Source of the DNA: Candidatus Heimdallarchaeota archaeon
GTDB lineage: Archaea; Asgardarchaeota; Heimdallarchaeia; Heimdallarchaeales; Heimdallarchaeaceae
Assembly (NCBI GenBank): GCA_023270155.1
Contig: JAGLTB010000018.1
Span: forward strand, 1 to 45,015
Direction: 5' to 3'
DNA: 45,015 bases
The notes under the pieces are model-generated. The model ran no database searches, was not told where the DNA came from, and saw only the letters and a program-made list of their open reading frames with translations. Below, piece after piece: positions 1,517-28,308 of the stretch (the stretch's first letter is position 1; each line of letters starts with the position of its first letter). A program made the translations under genes and the position numbers.

Positions 1517-3007
1517 ATGAGTAGTGTAAAGAAGAAAATTTCGTTAGCACCGGAAGTAGTAAAACTCTATAAAGAAATTAGCATGAAAGACGAAATATCA
1601 ATTGATGAATTGAAGGACGTCACAAAGCTAGATCATGGGAAACTCGAATATCTACTTGGAGCTCTAACTTCAAATAATCTTGTTGAAAGGATTATAGAGG
1701 TTAAGAAAAAAGTTCTCTTAACTGAAGCAGGTGAAATTGCTGCAGTAAATCAATTAGTAGAACGAAGAATCCTATCTGTTTTAAAAGAAAATCAACCAAT
1801 TAATTCTTCTGAACTTTCAAAATTATTAGATACTGATAATAGAGAAATGAATGCTGGGATTGGTTATCTGAAAAAACAGGGACTTATTGACATTGTTCAA
1901 GGACAGATCTCTTTATCTCAAAAAGAGGTAGAAGTTAGCAAGGATATACAGGAAATCTTAGTTGAACTTTCCAAAAGAAACAAAGTAGATATTCAGAATT
2001 ATGAAAAAACATTACTTCAAAGAAATTTGATAGCAATTGAAGATGAGAAAAAAATAATCATTAAAGCGATTGTTAAGTTTGAAGAAATGAAAACGAATAT
2101 AGTTGAAACATCTGATATCAGTAGATTAACTCCAGAAATGATTAGAAATGGAACTTGGAGAAAAACAAAATTGCGTGAATATAATCTAGATGTTTCCCCT
2201 CCTGAATTCTTTACAGGTAGAAAACAACCATATGCAAGATTCTTGGATGAGGTTAAACAGAAATTAGTTGCATTTGGATTCCAAGAAATGCGAGGTCCGA
2301 TTGTAGAGCTTGAATATTGGAATTTTGATGCTCTATTTCAAGCTCAAGATCATCCATCAAGGGAATGGTCAGATGTATATAGAATCGCTAAACCTAGTAA
2401 AGGAAAATTACCGGAGGAAGATCATGTTAAGCTTGTTCAGAAAGCTCATGAAAATGGTTATGATACTGGAAGCAAAGGTTGGCGATACAAGTGGGATCCA
2501 ATGAAGAGTGCTCGTCTAGTTCTCAGAGCTCAAGGAACTTCTGTGAGTGCAAGAACTCTCGTAGGTTTACCAATCCCTTCAAAGTATTTTAGCATATCTC
2601 GATGCTTTAGACCAGATACAACAGACACTACCCATCTATCAGAATTTAATCAAGCTGAAGGAATTGTTTGTGATCCGTCTATTACTTTTCGAGATTTATT
2701 GGGTATTCTCGAAACTTTCGCAATTGAAATATCAGAAGCTCCGAATTATACATTCAAGCCTGATTATTATCCATTCACTGAACCATCAGTGGAATTAAGT
2801 GTAAAAGATCCTAAAATAGGACACGTTGAATATGGTGGTGCAGGAATATTCCGACCTGAGGTAACAAGACCATTTGGTATAGATGATCCAGTAATTGCTT
2901 GGGGTTTAGGTGTAGACAGATTGTTTATGGTTAAGTATGGAATAACTGACATTAGAGAACTTTATAGCTATAAACTCGATTGGTTGAGATCAGCTAGGAT
3001 GTCGTGA
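1517..3007 (+). CDS. pheS: Phenylalanyl-tRNA synthetase alpha subunit
   Basis: This is the catalytic alpha subunit of PheRS, which charges tRNA-Phe as an (alpha-beta)2 tetramer in the cytosol. At 496 residues it has the archaeal/eukaryotic length. The N-terminal 150 or so residues hold winged-helix DNA/RNA-binding repeats, typical of this branch and absent in bacteria. The class II catalytic core follows: FTGRKQPYARFLDEV, motif 2 around SRCFRPDTTDTTHLSEF (near residue 370) and motif 3 GLGVDRL close to the C-terminus. TTAGGAGTG (1501-1509) gives a good Shine-Dalgarno site for the ATG. pheT starts 9 bases after the stop, so the two subunits are co-transcribed. Confidence 0.97.
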   Translation: MSSVKKKISLAPEVVKLYKEISMKDEISIDELKDVTKLDHGKLEYLLGALTSNNLVERIIEVKKKVLLTEAGEIAAVNQLVERRILSVLKENQPINSSELSKLLDTDNREMNAGIGYLKKQGLIDIVQGQISLSQKEVEVSKDIQEILVELSKRNKVDIQNYEKTLLQRNLIAIEDEKKIIIKAIVKFEEMKTNIVETSDISRLTPEMIRNGTWRKTKLREYNLDVSPPEFFTGRKQPYARFLDEVKQKLVAFGFQEMRGPIVELEYWNFDALFQAQDHPSREWSDVYRIAKPSKGKLPEEDHVKLVQKAHENGYDTGSKGWRYKWDPMKSARLVLRAQGTSVSARTLVGLPIPSKYFSISRCFRPDTTDTTHLSEFNQAEGIVCDPSITFRDLLGILETFAIEISEAPNYTFKPDYYPFTEPSVELSVKDPKIGHVEYGGAGIFRPEVTRPFGIDDPVIAWGLGVDRLFMVKYGITDIRELYSYKLDWLRSARMS

Positions 3008-3016
3008 GGTGAAAAA

Positions 3017-4711
3017 ATGGTATCTATAAAAGCAAGTTATACAAAAATACTGGAATTTCTAGGTAAAGAACTATCGATGGAAGAGTTAGAAGATCTGTTA
3101 TCATTCACAAAAACAGAGATTGATGATTACGTCAAAGAGGAAGACATGCTTGTCCTTGATATTAAGACGAGTAATCGTCCTGATCTTTGGTGTGTTGAAG
3201 GAATGATTAGAGAAATAAAAGGAATTTTAGATATGGAAAAAGGCATTCCTTCTTATGAAGTGGAACAGAGTGGTTTCAGTGTCAAAGTTGATTCAGCTTT
3301 AGCTTCATCTAGGCCTTATATTGCCTGTGCAATAGCAAAGAAAATCAATTTAGATGATTTCCATATTAAACAGCTAATGCAACATTCGGAGAAAATAGAT
3401 AATTCTTATGGCAGAAAGAGAAAAAGGTCATCTATTGGAATGTATAATCTTTCAATGATTCAAAATCCAGTACTTTACGAAACTGCTCAAAAATCTCATA
3501 AATTCATTCCACTTGGGTATGAAAAAGAAATGTCTTTAGATAAGATACTTGATGAGCATGAAAAAGGATTAGAATTCGGGCAAATAGTTAAAGATTATGG
3601 CATCTATCCTATCTTGCTATCCGCAGATGGAATGACCCTATCCTTACCTCCAGTAATTAATAGTAATGATGTTGGTCGAATTACTGAAGATACAACTGAA
3701 TGTTTAATCGAAGTAACTGGCACCAATTTCGAGACAGTAAATGTAGTTCTCAATATTCTATGTCAAACAATGGCTGACCATGGAGCAGAAATCTATAGTG
3801 TTGTTATTGAATATCCACCTGAAATTCATAAAGAACATGTTATTACTCCATTACTAGAACTTGAAAGCATTACTGTAAAACTAGATACAGTTGAAAAATA
3901 CCTAGATGTAAAAATAAATGCTAAAAAAGCAAAAGAACTAATGCAGAAAAGAAGATTCGAGTGTAAGGAATTAAAAGATAATGAGATTGAAGTATTAATT
4001 CCCCCTTATCGAAAAGATATACTACATTGGGTAGACATAGCAGAAGAGCTTGCAATAGCGTTGGATTATAACAAAATAGGTCCAACAAAATGGACAGTAT
4101 TAACAACTGGAGGTCTCCTTCCAGAAACTGAAAGCGAAAATGTTGTAAGAGAAATTTTAGTAGGAGCTTCTGGTATCGAATTAGTTACCAACATACTTAC
4201 TGATCCAAGTATTCTGACTACTAATGTTAACCTCGACAAGCAAGAATTAGTGATTATTGAAAATCCAGTCAGTCAAACATCCAGTGTTCTTAGAAATCAG
4301 ATATTTCCTAATCTGATAAATGTGGTTTCAAAAAATACTCACGAACCCTATCCTCAGATTATTTTTGAGGTTGGTGAAGTAGTTAAAATGGATAAGAATG
4401 ATGTTTGGACTCAAACCAATGCTGCCTTTTGCATTGCAGATGCAGATGCTAGTTTTGAAGATGCACATAAAAGACTTCATCATCTTATGAAACTGCTAAA
4501 CACCGAATATAAAATCGAAAATACAACTCACCCCTCCTTTACAGATGGACGCTGTGGAATGATAAGTATTGGTGATATCCAATGTGGAATTATAGGAGAG
4601 ATTAACCCACTTATACTTGAGAAGAATCAAATTTGGGTTCCTGTAGTTTGTTTTGAAGTAGAATTACCTAGCATTCCAACACTCAAATGTAAGATAAAGA
4701 AGACTTTCTAG
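3017..4711 (+). CDS. pheT: Phenylalanyl-tRNA synthetase beta subunit
   Basis: This is the structural and editing beta subunit of PheRS. It is 564 residues, the shorter archaeal form without the N-terminal EMAP/OB and C-terminal anticodon-binding domains of bacterial PheT. The N-terminus carries the B1 region (SNRPDLW near residue 55) and the middle has the B3/B4 editing module. A B5 helix-turn-helix domain follows (VKLDTVEKYLDVKI, then IPPYRKDILHWVDIAEE), and the C-terminus is a degenerate class II core. A GAGGTG ribosome site (3006-3011) lies at the pheS stop. The last codons form the left arm of an inverted repeat shared with the convergent kinase gene downstream. Confidence 0.96.
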   Translation: MVSIKASYTKILEFLGKELSMEELEDLLSFTKTEIDDYVKEEDMLVLDIKTSNRPDLWCVEGMIREIKGILDMEKGIPSYEVEQSGFSVKVDSALASSRPYIACAIAKKINLDDFHIKQLMQHSEKIDNSYGRKRKRSSIGMYNLSMIQNPVLYETAQKSHKFIPLGYEKEMSLDKILDEHEKGLEFGQIVKDYGIYPILLSADGMTLSLPPVINSNDVGRITEDTTECLIEVTGTNFETVNVVLNILCQTMADHGAEIYSVVIEYPPEIHKEHVITPLLELESITVKLDTVEKYLDVKINAKKAKELMQKRRFECKELKDNEIEVLIPPYRKDILHWVDIAEELAIALDYNKIGPTKWTVLTTGGLLPETESENVVREILVGASGIELVTNILTDPSILTTNVNLDKQELVIIENPVSQTSSVLRNQIFPNLINVVSKNTHEPYPQIIFEVGEVVKMDKNDVWTQTNAAFCIADADASFEDAHKRLHHLMKLLNTEYKIENTTHPSFTDGRCGMISIGDIQCGIIGEINPLILEKNQIWVPVVCFEVELPSIPTLKCKIKKTF

Positions 4712-12244: not shown

Positions 12245-13228
12245 CTAGAATCCCATAGTATTCAAAATGTGTTTTACTATCTTGAATTTATATCCTACAT
12301 TAATGACATCGTTAACATTGGTTGTCATGCCAATCAATAATTTACCTTCCGAACAATCCTCAACTATAATTTGCACTACTCCCGCATTAAGTGCTTTTAT
12401 TTCATCCTCTGATCTAATCATTTCATAGATAACTCGTGGAAATTTGGTTATTGTTTCCAGAACGTAGATTATCTTTCTCTCTTCAAGATTTCCAGCGTAC
12501 AACTCTCCCATTACTCCGTCTTCCTTTGGAAAAATATATGCTGAAGCAGCAGATGCGTTACATCCTCTTATCGAAGAGAATAGCAAAGAGGTGATTGCTC
12601 TCTTATTAGCTTCATCAAGTATCTCCTGTGTCATCTCGCTTGCAGGTATTTTAGGTACTGTTTCAAATGGTCTTATTTTCTCATAGGTTTCTAATCTGGT
12701 TTCCATTCTTTCTTGTTCTACAGTCTTTATGGTTGGAACAATCTCTTGTTCTTCAATCTCTCCAGGTGGTACTACTTCTTTTTCTAATTTCTCGATACCA
12801 ACACGTGTAAAGACCTTGTTCAATTCTTCCCTATAAACAGTAACATCCCGGATTTTCTTCATTACGGTTTTTATTAGTTTAGACGGAGTATCGTGTGTTA
12901 AAGTATTAAGAATTGTAGATCCTAGTAATTTTATATATTCAAGAATTCTAGGCCTAACTTCAGCACTTATATTTTCAACTCGTGATACAAACAAAATAGT
13001 TACATCAAAGAATGTGATATAAGTTGCCCTGTACTTTCCTCGAAATATGGTGATCTCATTATACCTTCTCACCCACTGATAGAATTCAATAGGCTGGATG
13101 AAATATCTATGAACCTCTTCTTTTTCAAATTCGTTAATAATTTGCTCTAATTCGAAGATATTAATACCTTCGAGATCATAAACAATTACTGCTACTAAAG
13201 GGCTAATATCAATTTTAGGGAATGGCAT
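12245..13228 (-). CDS. Longin/roadblock-like two-domain protein A
   Basis: This 327-residue protein has two small alpha/beta domains joined by a charged linker (about 150-200). The N-terminal domain (8-115) has paired strands (PLVAVIVYDLEGINIFE), then ITIFRGKYRATYITFFDVTI, then a helix. That order resembles longin domains. The C-terminal domain (about 205-325) has the helix-strand-strand-helix-strands-helix order of roadblock/LC7 domains. It matches the C-terminal parts of the proteins at 13427-14005 and 14740-15840: KFPRVI versus KYPPVI and KYPEVI, LNAGV versus LDTGV and LDAGD. Such folds usually dimerise and dock small GTPases at membranes. Assignment is from pattern and inferred secondary structure, not a database match. 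Confidence 0.55.
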   Translation of the reverse strand: MPFPKIDISPLVAVIVYDLEGINIFELEQIINEFEKEEVHRYFIQPIEFYQWVRRYNEITIFRGKYRATYITFFDVTILFVSRVENISAEVRPRILEYIKLLGSTILNTLTHDTPSKLIKTVMKKIRDVTVYREELNKVFTRVGIEKLEKEVVPPGEIEEQEIVPTIKTVEQERMETRLETYEKIRPFETVPKIPASEMTQEILDEANKRAITSLLFSSIRGCNASAASAYIFPKEDGVMGELYAGNLEERKIIYVLETITKFPRVIYEMIRSEDEIKALNAGVVQIIVEDCSEGKLLIGMTTNVNDVINVGYKFKIVKHILNTMGF

Positions 13229-13426: not shown

Positions 13427-14005
13427 ATGAAAGAGAAGAATTCAGATAAATCTCCATCAAGTAATATAATTACAAGAAAAAGAAAAGTTCCTCCAAAAGA
13501 TCTTTTCGTTGAAATGGAAGATACTGCATATGAAACACTAAATATCTCTAAAAGAAAAATACAAACTGGACAATATCTTAAAGAATTCTTAAAAGAAACT
13601 TCTTCAGCTGAAGCCGTTATAGAAGCTATTCGTGTTACTATTGATGCGCTTCTAGATAGCATATCATCTGATATGAAATCTTTATCAGCAGCTGCCTTAG
13701 TCCCTCATCCAGAAAGCTCTGAAACTAAAGCAATAGTTAGAGGACCATTAAGCAGAGAAATAGTCAAGAAAATACTAGGGATTTTCAGAAAATATCCTCC
13801 TGTAATAAACGATCTACTTGGATCTGATGAAGAAGTAAAATTCTTAGATACTGGTGTAGGATACGTTGTTATGGAAAACTGTCAGAAAGACAATTATCTA
13901 ATTGGAATAGTACAAAAACAAAAGGATGTCGATGAGCTTTCCAGAAAGTTGAGACATGTCCAAAATGTTGTTATAGATAATACACTTATCATTGATGAAT
14001 TGTAA
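13427..14005 (+). CDS. Roadblock-like single-domain protein C
   Basis: At 192 residues this is the shortest of the three paralogues. It has a basic, probably flexible N-terminus (1-50, with TRKRKVPPKD) and then one roadblock-like domain (about 55-190): helix AVIEAIRVTIDALLDS, strands, then helix VKKILGIFRKYPPVINDLL. Strands around VKFLDTGVGYVVMENCQ and YLIGIVQ follow, and a last helix ends the protein. It lacks the N-terminal longin-like domain of its neighbours. It is divergent from protein A and convergent, with a 7-base gap, on the zinc-ribbon membrane protein. A dimerisation partner for A or B is a reasonable guess. Confidence 0.55.
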   Translation: MKEKNSDKSPSSNIITRKRKVPPKDLFVEMEDTAYETLNISKRKIQTGQYLKEFLKETSSAEAVIEAIRVTIDALLDSISSDMKSLSAAALVPHPESSETKAIVRGPLSREIVKKILGIFRKYPPVINDLLGSDEEVKFLDTGVGYVVMENCQKDNYLIGIVQKQKDVDELSRKLRHVQNVVIDNTLIIDEL

Positions 14006-14739: not shown

Positions 14740-15840
14740 TTAAAAAGATGATTTCAAAAATTCATCCATCATAGTTTTGACTACTTTGAATCTCTTAGCA
14801 ATTACTGGGATTTCATCTCTATTCTTAGTTATACTTACTAACATCCCGCTTTCTGCCTCTTCAAGAATAACTACTCCATCCCCTGCATCTAATGTTTTTT
14901 CTTCTATATCACTTTCCAATGTTTGTTTGATAACTTCTGGATATTTCGAAAGAATTCCTAAGACAAATTCTGCATGTTTGTCAGTCATCCCAAAGGTTAG
15001 GGTTTCGAGTCTCCCATCTTCTCCTGTATGAACAAAACATACTCCTGTTTTTGTTGACAAACCTTTAACAACAGACGAAAGGACTCTTTCAATAGCTACT
15101 CTCTTGGTTTCTTCCAACATCTGTTGAGTCAATTGAACTTTTTTATCTTCTTTTTTTTCTTCTGGTTTATCTGCTTTAAATCCAATGAATTCAAGAAGTC
15201 CTTCAACTTTCTCTTTTCCTTCAGCTGGTTGAGTACTTACACTAGAAGTCATTGATGACTGACTAGTTGATGGAGTAGAACTAGTAGTATATGGAGAAGG
15301 TGTGGATGTAGGAGATTGTGCAACTGGTCTTTCTGGTTTATCAGGTATAACTGGTTCTTCTTTAACAACAGCAATGGGTTCTGCTTCAACTTGTTGTGGT
15401 TTCTTTGTTGGATAAAAATCATATTTAACTTGACTAGCAGCTCTCTCTGATATTAAATTACCGAGTTTCTTGATGAGAGCAGTTTGGGAACGAGGTTCCA
15501 TTTTATCAATAGCACCATAATCCTGTAGTTGTTCAATTAATTTCTGCTTGATTATATTGATAATTTTCACGGATTCTTGTTCTGGTGAATCAGGTAAGAA
15601 CATGCAACTTAATATGATGTTGTAAAATAGATGATAATCTACTCTGAATACCTCATTGATAAGAGTGATTGTTTGTGATTTTTTCAGCTCTTCTCTTATT
15701 TTTACACTGGTGTCTATCACCTGAAAAATAGTAGAAAACGGAGTTTTTTGATTAATAACTTTATCAAAAACCATATCTTCTTCTAATGTAAATAGACTAA
15801 AGCCAACAAACTTATCCCAGGGCAATTCAAAGTCACTCAT
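14740..15840 (-). CDS. Longin/roadblock-like two-domain protein B
   Basis: This 366-residue protein has the same plan as protein A. The N-terminal domain (about 1-140) begins FVGFSLFTLEEDMVFDKV and has the strand pair ITLINEVFRVDYHLFYNIIL followed by helices, longin-like. The linker (about 150-235) is rich in Pro, Ser and Thr and probably disordered. The C-terminal roadblock-like domain (240-366) has TQQMLEETKR, GILSKYPEVI and KTLDAGDGVVI, and ends in a helix. It is the middle gene of a probable three-gene operon: acidic protein, 44-base gap, this gene, 64-base gap, zinc-ribbon membrane protein. A regulatory or adaptor role is inferred from the fold only. Confidence 0.55.
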   Translation of the reverse strand: MSDFELPWDKFVGFSLFTLEEDMVFDKVINQKTPFSTIFQVIDTSVKIREELKKSQTITLINEVFRVDYHLFYNIILSCMFLPDSPEQESVKIINIIKQKLIEQLQDYGAIDKMEPRSQTALIKKLGNLISERAASQVKYDFYPTKKPQQVEAEPIAVVKEEPVIPDKPERPVAQSPTSTPSPYTTSSTPSTSQSSMTSSVSTQPAEGKEKVEGLLEFIGFKADKPEEKKEDKKVQLTQQMLEETKRVAIERVLSSVVKGLSTKTGVCFVHTGEDGRLETLTFGMTDKHAEFVLGILSKYPEVIKQTLESDIEEKTLDAGDGVVILEEAESGMLVSITKNRDEIPVIAKRFKVVKTMMDEFLKSSF

Positions 15841-17200: not shown

Positions 17201-18346
17201 GTGAATGAAAATTCATCTACAAGTTCTATTATTGTTGTTTATCTAATTTCTGCTAATAATAAACTAAACTTTAATAATCTAACAAATTATTATAATTTGA
17301 TGAACTCTTCTGTGAAGCCACTGTTAATCCAACTAGTTAGTTCTTTCTCTTATTACCTAGTAGATGAAGCACGTAAAGAAAAGGGAAGCGAAATTACAGA
17401 AGTTAAAATAGATGATATTGAATACTACAAAGCTAGTGGGAGATTTGGAGAGGTATATGTGGTAGACGTTTTTTATACATCTGTAGTGGGAAAGCACAAA
17501 AGTAAGCTTGCGATTAAGTTTATAGAAAGCTCAAATGATGTAATAACAGAGATAAAAAATTCATCATTTCTTGAAAAAAAATTCTCAACTCGATCATTTG
17601 TTCAAGTACCAAGATACATCTATGTAAATTTGAAACAACCTACATTTATAGCATATGAAGGCATTACTGGAGTAAATTATGAGGATGCTGATAGCGTTCT
17701 TGATAAAAGCTTCTGGGCAGGATATGTTTTATCCATAATTCATGAAGGAAAGCCAAGATCAGTCATCACTGATATTTATGAAGAATTATATCGAAGATTG
17801 ATTTTGACTATTTTTGGAGGAGAAGAAATCGAGCAAGAAATTATGGGAAAATCTAAAGATCTACTTGAAATGGTGGCGAACTCTCAAGGTGGAAGTGATT
17901 CATTCGGAGATTTTCATCAGAGTAATTTAATGATAAGAACAACTCCTCATGGAGAAATCGTCAATATTGCTATTATAGACCCAACATTCTGGATGCAAGG
18001 ATCATTCGACCGATTTGAAGATATTGGTACATTCTTTGGAAGGCAAGCTTTACTCGAATACAGAACTTCAAGAACTCTGATAAGTACTATCTCTGACATT
18101 AAGCAATTTATAGAAGGATATAATGTTCATCTAAAAGAGATAAATAACGTTCCACTCGAACAGTTGTATCCAAAAGGTTATCCAATTGATTTCTTTCTAT
18201 CAATTTGGGCTATGATGGATATTATAGATAAAACTAGCACACTGAATATACCAGTTGACCATCCTGATGTTATTCTATTGAAGGAATTAGCAATTAAATT
18301 CTTAACAGAACACCCAATTAGCAACGAAGTGAATACTTTTCTTTAA
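17201..18346 (+). CDS. Protein-kinase-fold (APH/choline-kinase-like) protein
   Basis: This 381-residue protein has the kinase fold. It has a glycine loop resembling eukaryotic kinases (SGRFGEVYVV, 79-88), a probable ATP-binding Lys106 in LAIKFIE, and the catalytic loop GDFHQSNLM (Asp237, Asn242) of the aminoglycoside phosphotransferase type. The metal-binding Asp260 is in AIIDP. The first 50 residues carry a Ser/Asn-rich, partly hydrophobic stretch before the fold. The substrate, whether protein or small molecule, is unknown. The tail-anchored JAMM gene follows 45 bases downstream on the same strand, so the two may be co-transcribed. Key catalytic residues are intact, so it is probably active. 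Confidence 0.7.
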   Translation: MNENSSTSSIIVVYLISANNKLNFNNLTNYYNLMNSSVKPLLIQLVSSFSYYLVDEARKEKGSEITEVKIDDIEYYKASGRFGEVYVVDVFYTSVVGKHKSKLAIKFIESSNDVITEIKNSSFLEKKFSTRSFVQVPRYIYVNLKQPTFIAYEGITGVNYEDADSVLDKSFWAGYVLSIIHEGKPRSVITDIYEELYRRLILTIFGGEEIEQEIMGKSKDLLEMVANSQGGSDSFGDFHQSNLMIRTTPHGEIVNIAIIDPTFWMQGSFDRFEDIGTFFGRQALLEYRTSRTLISTISDIKQFIEGYNVHLKEINNVPLEQLYPKGYPIDFFLSIWAMMDIIDKTSTLNIPVDHPDVILLKELAIKFLTEHPISNEVNTFL

Positions 18347-18391: not shown

Positions 18392-19234
18392 ATGACTCAA
18401 TATAAAAAAGAAATCTTGATTTCCCCCTACGTATTGGCAAAGATATTGTCAGTAGATTCTATTGATCCGACTAAAGAATCAGCAGGTGTTCTACTAGGGT
18501 ATTTGGATGAGGATGGAGAAACGTTAGTTGTAACAGATTTTGATACAGGTAGTCAAAAACAAACGTCCACATTTGTTGCTTTAGACGATGAAGCTCTTGT
18601 TCAGATAGTTGCAGATTTACAAAAGAGAGATAGAAATGTAACAATAGTTGGATGGGCTCATACTCATCCATCGTTTGGTTGTTTTCTCTCAGGAACTGAT
18701 AAAAATACTCAACGAATATACCAAAACCTTTTCTCACATGCTGTTGCTCTTGTCGTAGACCCATCTAAATATTACAACACTTCACAGCAGAAAGATTTGG
18801 AAATCCAATTTTTCAGATTAATCGATGATCTTGATTACAAAGCAATTCCTTATGGAATATATTTTGATGATCTTACTCAACATCTATCTAATCTAGTAGA
18901 AGTTGATATCAAATGGGATATCCCCCAACTTTCAAAGGAGGAGGTTAGGAAACTTCATCAGAAACTGGAAACTATAGTCTCTCCAAAGCTTCTTGAAAAT
19001 GATAAAAAACTACTTCATGGTTTTGTTGATATACTAAGTGAGACAAGAGAAGAGCTGGTGGATGTTGGAGAAGGTAAGGAGATTTTAGAATCTATTGATA
19101 AGAAATTAAACATGATAAGTGACAATGTTAATCAAATATATAATGAAGAAACATTCAATCTTTACGCAGTTCTCAATATTATTGCTGTTGTAATGATAGC
19201 AATTTCTTGGTTCCTGATTGCGTTTTTAACTTGA
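18392..19234 (+). CDS. Tail-anchored JAMM/MPN metalloprotease, Rpn11/CSN5-like
   Basis: This 280-residue protein starts with an MPN domain bearing a complete JAMM zinc-protease motif: Glu29, then GWAHTHPSFGCFLSGTD, in which His90, His92, Ser100 and Asp103 fit HxHx7SxxD. The motif reads much like eukaryotic Rpn11 and CSN5 (HSHPGFGCWLSGVD), which remove ubiquitin or NEDD8. A helical region follows (150-250). The extreme C-terminus is one hydrophobic helix (about 257-280) with nothing after it, the layout of a tail-anchored protein with the protease in the cytosol. No ubiquitin, E1 or E2 gene is in the window. It is probably transcribed with the kinase-fold gene upstream. The motif is certain; deubiquitinase activity is inferred. 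Confidence 0.85.
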   Translation: MTQYKKEILISPYVLAKILSVDSIDPTKESAGVLLGYLDEDGETLVVTDFDTGSQKQTSTFVALDDEALVQIVADLQKRDRNVTIVGWAHTHPSFGCFLSGTDKNTQRIYQNLFSHAVALVVDPSKYYNTSQQKDLEIQFFRLIDDLDYKAIPYGIYFDDLTQHLSNLVEVDIKWDIPQLSKEEVRKLHQKLETIVSPKLLENDKKLLHGFVDILSETREELVDVGEGKEILESIDKKLNMISDNVNQIYNEETFNLYAVLNIIAVVMIAISWFLIAFLT

Positions 19235-26232: not shown

Positions 26233-28308
26233 TTATACCTTATACGATTTAAGATTTCTTTTTGATATCTTTGTTTTACACATGGGACATTCATTCTTTA
26301 TTTTCATCCACTGCTCCATATGATCGTCATGTGCAACATTGGAACAATTTGGACATTCTAGGATGCTATCCCCTCTTTTAATTAAACCTTGACAGACTGA
26401 ACATTTTGAAGGAATTTCTTCACAGTTTTTACATGGTTCATATGCTGATTTGATTATATGTCCACAGTTTAAACAGTGCATTTTTAGTGATGGTAAGATA
26501 AGTTCTCCTTTCCTCTCGAAGTATGTACTAGTAAGACTTCCCTTGTAATATCCATGAGCAAGCAATTGACAGATGGTTCTAAAAATATCATGTTCCATTA
26601 AAGAGAGATCAGCAGCAATAATATTGAGTCTGATTTTTTTCCTTCTTGATTTTTCTATCTCATTAACTATCCGGACATAATTGTCTCCTAACTCTTCCAA
26701 TTCCCTATTAGGCAGAAATTTTTGATAAGATAATACATTTAGAGAATTTCCTCTCATTTCCAGATTAACTAAACCTGAACCTGTTAATTCGTAGATTATA
26801 TTTCTAGATGCATTTAGGGATTTACTCCAGTTTTTCTGAATGCTGCTTAATGATACTTTCTTATTCGCTGTAATAAATCCGAATATTTCTTGATAATGAA
26901 TGGGGAGGTCTTCTAATTGCGTGAGAGGAGGAAAGAAAGGAATCTCATCTGGTTGTAACCGATTCCCCACAATTGTGCCTTTTATCAGACCTTTACCATA
27001 AAAACCATACAGCCTTTCTTTGGCATAGAATTTGTCTACCCCCAGTGCTAAAGCTATATCTCTAACATTAATCTGTTTTTTTGCAATAACCATTCCAAGT
27101 AGGATCTTCTCCCATCTATCAAGAGTTCCTTCTTGAGTTCTACTATATCTACGAATACTTTCAATATAAAGAGTAGCACCTTTTATTGTCCCAGAAATGA
27201 ATCCTTCCAGAAGAAGTGTTATAACACCTTCTAAAATCTCACCAGTTGTTCTATTCATGAGAGCTCCTAGTTTTTTAAGAGGGATTCTGTCTTGGGTAGA
27301 TAACAATCCAAACAAAGCTTCATAATTAAAGAAAGAAAGAGTAGCCATTTCCTCAATGGTTCGTTTTGGTTTTAACTCAGGAATAACAATTGGATTGACA
27401 TAATTTGTTTCTGTAAAAACTACTTGAAAAGTTCCTCTTGCGGTAAGAAAAGCTAAAATTTTCATTACTTCTATAGGTTCCTTGCCTACAAACTTAACTA
27501 ATTCTTTAATTGAGACTTTCTTTCTTAATATTGTGTATCCTGCAATATCTTTCTCAACTCCCTGTAAGGAAGATAGTGGGAGGATTCTAGGTGAAATATG
27601 ATATTTTTTCACGTTAATGAAAACACTTGAAACTCCAACTAATTTTGATCGAATCTCAAACTGGGCTTCTAGTTTTCTATAAAGCATTAGAAAAGACAAT
27701 TTTGTAAATACCTGCTCTCTGGAAAAACCAGTGTGTTTTGCTACGTTTGCCAATTCAGCATTTCTTAGCATCATACAAACACCCACAATAAAAGTATCCT
27801 CTGCGGAAATTGTAACTTTTTCAGGTGGTTTCCATATCCAATTTGAAATGAATTCTTTGTTTTTTATTTGTCCTATTAACAATCCTTTGCTAATAAAGTG
27901 CTTCAGATGATCTAACAGAATGCTGAGTTTTATATTAGCAATCCCAGTTATCTCTTTTAAACTTATTTTCTTTGAATATGCTAATAAACCTAGGATAGCT
28001 TTTCGAATAGAGGTTAAACGACCAGGATTTGTTTGTGGAAATTTATAGATTGATGCTATAACAAATTTATCTTTTCTGTAAAAACCTCTGATAGTTAACG
28101 ATTGTATCAGTAATTGGATATACTCTTTAATTGCTTCTAAATTAATCTCATGTTTCTCGGAGAAATCTGCTAGATTTAAATTACGATAGAGAAATAATTG
28201 TGTTAAAACCAGAGCACGTTTAGCTTTTGATAATTTTGGCTCAGGAAGTTCCAGTTTTTTAAAATTGATGTTATAAACATCTTCTCGCTCGTAACTCAGT
28301 TCAATCAT
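26233..28308 (-). CDS. Winged-helix repeat protein with C-terminal zinc ribbon and RING-like finger
   Basis: This 691-residue protein is mostly a chain of five to seven degenerate winged-helix units, with repeated helix pairs such as RKAILGLLAYSKKISLKEI, ITRWEKILLGMV-type segments and KKVSLSSIQKNW. Two zinc sites end it. The first is a ribbon with Cys612, 615, 626 and 629. The second has Cys636, 639, 652, 655, His660, His663, Cys674 and 677, in the order CSVC...CPNC...H..H...CPMC. That eight-ligand cross-brace order fits a RING/PHD-like finger such as the Nse1-type variant RING, with one Cys replaced by His. RING fingers recruit E2 enzymes. It may be an E3-like or a DNA-binding regulator; neither is proven. 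Confidence 0.6.
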   Translation of the reverse strand: MIELSYEREDVYNINFKKLELPEPKLSKAKRALVLTQLFLYRNLNLADFSEKHEINLEAIKEYIQLLIQSLTIRGFYRKDKFVIASIYKFPQTNPGRLTSIRKAILGLLAYSKKISLKEITGIANIKLSILLDHLKHFISKGLLIGQIKNKEFISNWIWKPPEKVTISAEDTFIVGVCMMLRNAELANVAKHTGFSREQVFTKLSFLMLYRKLEAQFEIRSKLVGVSSVFINVKKYHISPRILPLSSLQGVEKDIAGYTILRKKVSIKELVKFVGKEPIEVMKILAFLTARGTFQVVFTETNYVNPIVIPELKPKRTIEEMATLSFFNYEALFGLLSTQDRIPLKKLGALMNRTTGEILEGVITLLLEGFISGTIKGATLYIESIRRYSRTQEGTLDRWEKILLGMVIAKKQINVRDIALALGVDKFYAKERLYGFYGKGLIKGTIVGNRLQPDEIPFFPPLTQLEDLPIHYQEIFGFITANKKVSLSSIQKNWSKSLNASRNIIYELTGSGLVNLEMRGNSLNVLSYQKFLPNRELEELGDNYVRIVNEIEKSRRKKIRLNIIAADLSLMEHDIFRTICQLLAHGYYKGSLTSTYFERKGELILPSLKMHCLNCGHIIKSAYEPCKNCEEIPSKCSVCQGLIKRGDSILECPNCSNVAHDDHMEQWMKIKNECPMCKTKISKRNLKSYKV

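Follow-up and report, generated by a model that had tools for sequence, protein, structure and literature searches.

An Rpn11-type JAMM protein with a predicted C-terminal membrane anchor in many Asgard archaea

AMSH/STAMBP, a JAMM deubiquitinase whose defining feature is an MIT domain, works with ESCRT at endosomes and reaches membranes through partners; it is not known to carry an anchor of its own. In the JAMM chemistry outlined in PMC6043591, zinc and a glutamate polarize a water molecule, which attacks ubiquitin at the bond that follows its Gly-Gly. CsRpn11 of Caldiarchaeum subterraneum, an archaeal Rpn11 with described structure and activity, matures the CsUb precursor and acts on conjugates according to the same paper; as described, it is tail-less and operon-encoded, and the word "membrane" is absent from the paper's main text. 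A link between ubiquitin and ESCRT in Asgard archaea has been drawn in the text of PMC9192718 and PMC10936438. Our search of open PMC papers found no description of a tail-anchored archaeal JAMM.

We analyzed a stretch of 45,015 nucleotides (the window) from the fragmented, 82% complete genome of a Candidatus Heimdallarchaeota archaeon. It encodes a JAMM protein with a hydrophobic C-terminus. Rpn11-type JAMM proteins are known; judged by its sequence, the tail-anchored archaeal version appears to be new. The features of the locus are as follows.

17201-18346, plus strand: conserved upstream gene, 381 aa, 45 bp before the JAMM gene, kept near tailed loci
18392-19234, plus strand: predicted tail-anchored Rpn11-type JAMM protein, 280 aa plus stop, ATG start
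18404-18856, plus strand: MPN+/JAMM catalytic domain, residues 5-155 (Pfam JAB, 5-112; CsRpn11 alignment, 7-155; VIA-align, model residues 6-155)
18476-18478, plus strand: catalytic E29, invariant in alignments of tailed rows
18659-18700, plus strand: metal site H90-x-H92...S100..D103 (motif rule of PMC7653365)
18857-19156, plus strand: linker into a long helix, residues 156-255, partly helical and of low confidence in places in the AlphaFold model
19157-19231, plus strand: predicted C-terminal membrane anchor, residues 256-280 (hydropathy; helix 227-279 in the AlphaFold model)

Active site and kinship

The metal-site rule given in PMC7653365, E-xN-H-x-H-x10-D, is matched throughout: E29, H90, H92, S100 and D103 are all present, with ten residues between H92 and D103. 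Pfam JAB (PF01398) matches residues 5-112 (50.7 bits, E 1.9e-13), and motif and modeled MPN fold together point to membership of the JAMM/MPN+ family. E29 is unchanged across the 24 tailed rows of one alignment (A1) and the 48 tailed and Caldarchaeal rows of another (A2), and the active-site residues are invariant among the tailed and Caldarchaeal relatives in these alignments.

The best PDB match of the protein is CsRpn11 (92.7 bits), followed by yeast Rpn11 (66), CSN5 (53) and AMSH-like Sst2 (43). A profile of 24 tailed proteins scored 203 bits against CsRpn11, 114 against Rpn11, 97 against CSN5, 75 against an AMSH-like protein and 69 against BRCC36; for the soluble JAMM of the same genome, the score against CsRpn11 is 52.9 bits. 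Fold comparison with VIA-align gave a tie between CsRpn11 (Z 22.9, rmsd 2.3, 145 aligned) and yeast Rpn11 (Z 22.6, rmsd 1.9, 158 aligned), with PfJAMM1 at Z 17.4-17.6 (rmsd 2.0, 128 aligned). In these overlays, residues 5-170 of the model aligned with 24-217 of yeast Rpn11, whose chain is longer by about 28 residues, and 5-165 with 0-158 of CsRpn11. By these scores the protein stands nearer to Rpn11 and CSN5 than to JAMM1, BRCC36 or AMSH, and the MIT model is not among the Pfam matches at E <= 1. Both the complete, Rpn11/CSN5-like active site (E29, H90-x-H92-x10-D103) and the Rpn11 kinship that the original prediction proposed are thus borne out, the latter by sequence, profile and fold scores alike. 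A bacterial-type JAB is disfavored by the profile and fold scores, though Prok-JAB matches at 26.4 bits, slightly above its cutoff of 25; the tree described below holds no bacterial rows.

The hydrophobic C-terminus

The last 25 residues of the protein, NLYAVLNIIAVVMIAISWFLIAFLT, form one hydrophobic stretch. Its Kyte-Doolittle 19-residue peak is 2.65, and 2 residues follow it. In the AlphaFold model (mean pLDDT 78.9, pTM 0.58) the helix from 227 to 279 is continuous, and its final two ten-residue blocks have pLDDT 86 and 89; blocks of the catalytic domain are mostly above 90, and values fall below 50 at residues 166-178 and 218-228. A hydrophobic helix at the very C-terminus had been predicted, and peak, position and model agree with it. 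With one hydrophobic helix near the C-terminus and no other, the protein has the makeup of a tail-anchored protein as judged by hydropathy.

To define tails strictly, we required a C-terminal peak of at least 1.9, no more than 5 residues from the end, and no peak of at least 1.6 before the last 40 residues. This rule selects 1 of the 41 ORFs in the window, the JAMM ORF itself. It also selects 65 of 1458 complete ORFs (>=100 aa) in L034-L228, a set of loci chosen for their JAMM and ubiquitin genes; 60 of the 65 are JAMM proteins. The JAMM motif occurs in 145 of these 1458 ORFs, leaving a tail background of 5/1313 among motif-free ORFs. Shuffling the protein sequence produced a tail of at least 2.6 once in 2000 trials. 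Among 200 distinct complete JAMM ORFs in the loci fetched, 63 have a tail peak of at least 2.0 and 137 have one of at most 1.43, with none in between. A chance tail is excluded by the ORF control, the shuffles and this two-way split.

A different role for the hydrophobic end would be that of a buried helix docking into a protein complex, as in eukaryotic Rpn11, where further C-terminal helices anchor the protein in the proteasome lid according to PMC6043591; the unbroken modeled helix 227-279 would suit this. However, 0-5 residues follow the peak in 62 of the 63 tailed ORFs (13 in the remaining one), the letters of the helix drift among tailed proteins while hydrophobicity is kept, and the other 137 ORFs have no such end stretch. 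We therefore consider docking very unlikely and retain the membrane anchor as the preferred reading of the tail.

Get3/ArsA matches were found in 18 of 18 genomes and 14 of 14 controls, so this ATPase does not discriminate as a marker of tail insertion. In the Odin-like genome G003, the ubiquitin cluster has an ArsA/Get3-type ATPase (L224 2272-3231) roughly 2 kb away from its E1 gene.

Distribution, ancestry and gene neighborhood

Of 195 genomes from the phylum, most of them incomplete, 139 gave a match in a protein search, and tails were read where DNA was fetched. At least 57 of the 195 encode a tailed JAMM, and the lineages concerned include Heimdall, Baldr, Wukong, Jord, Hermod, Sigyn, Hel and Odin-like. 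In the window's own family the tailed form is present in 20 of 21 sampled genomes, the exception (G139) being an 81% complete assembly. The original expectation that a membrane-held form would be unusual is therefore not upheld within Asgard, where it is usual in many lineages. A scan of genome contigs for related loci, covering the best 80 of 565 relatives, returned 47 tailed proteins (29 Heimdallarchaeota, 5 Hermod, 3 Baldr, 3 Jord, 2 Hel, 1 Sigyn, 1 Wukong, 1 "Asgard group" and 2 plain "archaeon") and 33 soluble ones. The soluble set includes Caldarchaeum, Wolframiiraptor, Calditenuis, Terraquivivens and kin, together with six Asgard records (Jord, Frey, Borr, Sif, Hel and Hod).

The tailed form is not universal in Asgard: across all 74 PF01398 places in 14 genomes of families f5, f8, f20 and f27, we found no tailed JAMM. 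The 74 places comprise 30 loci, 46 further places of which four are repeats, and two within L105 and L123. The genomes include the Hod-type (f5) and Loki-type (f8) ones examined, the Loki-type label being our own reading. Hodarchaea thus seem to lack the tailed JAMM, which makes it less likely that the form simply passed down to eukaryotes.

We built a tree of the catalytic core from 121 rows, leaving the tail out; it contains no bacterial rows and no JAMM1, CSN5, AMSH or BRCC36 reference rows. The two JAMM proteins of the genome fall into different supported groups, the window protein in a 19-row, all-tailed Heimdall group (support 97/93) and the protein of the cluster type among 37 soluble rows (support 95/99). 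The tailed label requires 5 changes on the free tree, and holding the tailed rows together with three tail-less relatives was not rejected (AU p 0.223); a single origin of the tail is neither shown nor rejected. Eukaryotic Rpn11 is a long branch in this tree, and because the 121 rows settle neither its place nor the root, gain and loss of the tail cannot be told apart. The tail-less relatives that group with tailed rows are L090/L271 (G004), L080 (G157) and L085 (G185); L080 and L085 have a longer C-terminal part in place of the tail.

As originally predicted, the JAMM gene lies away from ubiquitin genes: none was seen in the window, and ubiquitin, E1 and E2 are encoded on other contigs. In single-contig relatives, the distance from the tailed JAMM to ubiquitin is about 190 kb (G050) or at least 590 kb (G003, taking the contig as a circle). 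We scored four ubiquitin-cluster families (E2/UEV, ThiF-type E1, ubiquitin-like, and membrane or RING-like, with RING below cutoff) within 5 kb of each gene. They were present at 58 of 84 distinct soluble JAMM loci and at none of the 61 distinct tailed loci; at 32 of these 61, at least 3 kb was available on both sides. Neither the window gene nor any of the 61 tailed loci sits in a ubiquitin operon, beside Ub, E1, E2 or RING, so the pairing of the tailed protein with ubiquitin rests on subtraction and co-occurrence.

The setting in the window is otherwise ordinary, with cofE-like and dihydropteroate-synthase genes downstream. On the minus strand, about 7 kb from the JAMM gene, a 691-aa protein (26233-28308) looks winged-helix-like by eye and ends in a RING-like finger; it scores 26.5 bits against zf-RING_2, just below the cutoff of 27.3, and is a possible E3. 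Upstream, three proteins (12245-13228, 13427-14005 and 14740-15840) have a C-terminal domain that looks similar by eye; the one tested (14743-15840) had no Pfam match.

Homologues of the gene directly upstream (17201-18346) occur near 27 of the 61 distinct tailed loci, all in Heimdall relatives, and in 25 of these 27 they lie 5' of the JAMM gene in the same orientation, separated from it by a median of 49 bp. This gene has no Pfam or NCBIfam match; by eye it looks APH/kinase-like. Two other genes precede the tailed JAMM on the same strand at 15 of the 61 loci, in Baldr, Jord, Hermod, Sigyn and an Odin-like family. Such lineage-specific linkage would fit a membrane peptidase that serves its conserved neighbors, with ubiquitin incidental. 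However, the neighbors change between lineages while the JAMM stays, and the three tested (one from Heimdall, two from other lineages) lack a Pfam match and so name no pathway; we give this explanation little credence.

Ubiquitin systems, proposed function and comparison with known enzymes

The reading as a deubiquitinase presupposed a ubiquitin-like protein in the genome, and ubiquitin, E1 and E2 genes were indeed all found. Contig C129 (L218 7219-14475) carries, close together, genes for an 83-aa ubiquitin ending in GGF (...RTKGGF), a ThiF-family E1, a UEV/E2-like plus VPS28 protein, two Snf7 (ESCRT-III) proteins and an MIT-domain AAA protein of the Vps4 type; the genome has three E2 matches, the strongest of them on contig C11. 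There is no PF01398 match on C129, the two in the genome being on contigs C18 and C203. Contig C203 encodes a soluble JAMM (L003 159-908), a 118-aa ubiquitin-like protein, a ThiF-type E1 and membrane proteins. As C129 is without a JAMM and C203 has a soluble one of its own, the tailed JAMM is, by subtraction, the candidate for the C129 ubiquitin.

The membrane proteins of C203 lie at L003 938-3408. That at 2719-3408 has a RING finger above the Pfam cutoff and that at 938-2056 a RING-like end by eye; these proteins are perhaps membrane-embedded E3 ligases. Shortly after this cluster, five genes follow one another in tandem at L003 6704-11139 and, by eye, resemble paralogs.

Co-occurrence points the same way. 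Among the 57 tailed genomes, 54 have a ubiquitin match and 56 an E2 match. Tail and ubiquitin are associated (Fisher p 2.8e-7, phylogeny ignored), and in 83 genomes ubiquitin is present with no tailed JAMM found. In 12 of 18 tested tailed genomes, no PF01398 protein besides the tailed JAMM was found; the 18 were chosen because of a single match, and JAMMs too remote for PF01398 would escape. Of these 12 genomes, 11 have a ubiquitin match. Ubiquitin ends exactly in GG in 10 of the 11, and in the other, G003 (Odin-like; a single contig of 1,418,269 bp in which the tailed JAMM is the only PF01398 candidate), it ends in GGSVKY, so something must trim the precursor there. In the window's family, all five ubiquitins read have one extra residue after GG (GGF, GGS or GGY).

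The tailed JAMM might instead act on another modifier, either SAMP/Urm1-like or the 118-aa protein of C203. Contig C203 does encode this second ubiquitin-like protein with a ThiF-type E1 and a RING protein, and PfJAMM1, which was solved with SAMP2, shares the fold of the window protein. However, the soluble JAMM of C203 belongs to a different supported clade, the JAMM1 desampylase model (NCBIfam NF041370) scores 18.4 bits against a cutoff of 130, and single-contig G050 has one ubiquitin match and, besides the tailed JAMM, only a weak, divergent PF01398 match (32.9 bits). SAMP precursors, moreover, are not processed by CsRpn11 according to PMC6043591. We regard a different modifier as unlikely.

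We favor, with a probability of roughly two in three, a model in which the tail-anchored membrane JAMM is a ubiquitin isopeptidase serving the canonical ubiquitin system. The Rpn11-type enzyme would be held at the cytosolic face of the membrane by its C-terminal anchor, and a zinc-activated water in its MPN domain would cut after the Gly-Gly of canonical ubiquitin. It could trim the ubiquitin precursor (...RTKGGF) and could remove ubiquitin from proteins associated with or embedded in the membrane, a place where it may meet the ESCRT machinery; on C129, ESCRT genes adjoin those for ubiquitin and E1. What we infer for the protein comprises zinc binding and activity, membrane insertion and topology, the choice of ubiquitin, the ESCRT link and membrane-protein substrates. 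Because 10 of the 11 sole-JAMM genomes with a ubiquitin match encode one that already ends in GG, a need to trim the precursor cannot explain why the enzyme is conserved, and deconjugation is likelier than maturation as its conserved task.

A broader reading, which we offer tentatively and hold to be doubtful, is that ubiquitin removal in Asgard archaea has a membrane branch of its own, ancient within the phylum, in which tailed Rpn11, canonical ubiquitin and ESCRT combine an AMSH-like role with an Rpn11-like build; the soluble proteasomal Rpn11 of eukaryotes may then be a descendant or a sister of a membrane-bound form whose tail was lost. The link to the eukaryotic line is weakened because the Hod-type genomes examined showed no tailed JAMM. 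An anchored Rpn11 conserved in many lineages of Asgard archaea would mean that ubiquitin was already being removed at membranes before eukaryotes arose, next to the Asgard link between ubiquitin and ESCRT. It makes the question of whether Asgard ubiquitin acts on membrane proteins open to a direct test that needs a single soluble domain and a reporter tail.

Among known systems, CsRpn11 (PDB 6fju, 6fjv, 6fnn) is the closest to the window protein in sequence and fold and has the same metal site, but it comprises 202 aa and has no tail, compared to 280 aa with a tail here. Eukaryotic Rpn11/PSMD14, which dimerizes with Rpn8 in the lid of the proteasome, has the JAMM core in common, with about 32-34% identity over the aligned domain (yeast crystal structures), and is not known to have a membrane anchor. 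It does possess an insertion, Ins-2, together with the C-terminal helices for the proteasome lid, as PMC6043591 describes, and CsRpn11 is said there to lack Ins-2; the window protein aligns to CsRpn11 with no gap or extra length at that place and likewise shows no Ins-2. The CsRpn11 gene sits with those for ubiquitin, E2, E1 and srfp (Csub1473-1476) in the account of PMC5654768, whereas the window gene does not. The soluble JAMM of the same genome shares the JAMM core but has no tail, is encoded on a contig with ubiquitin-like, E1 and RING genes and belongs to the separate clade noted above (95/99). AMSH/STAMBP is a JAMM enzyme too, and would share a membrane and ESCRT role only if our preferred explanation is true; the match to AMSH-like Sst2 is far weaker (43 bits), and the window protein has no MIT match. 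Eukaryotes also have tail-anchored enzymes of the ubiquitin system, USP19 and UBE2J among them; these carry one C-terminal anchor and a cytosolic catalytic domain that is unrelated to JAMM.
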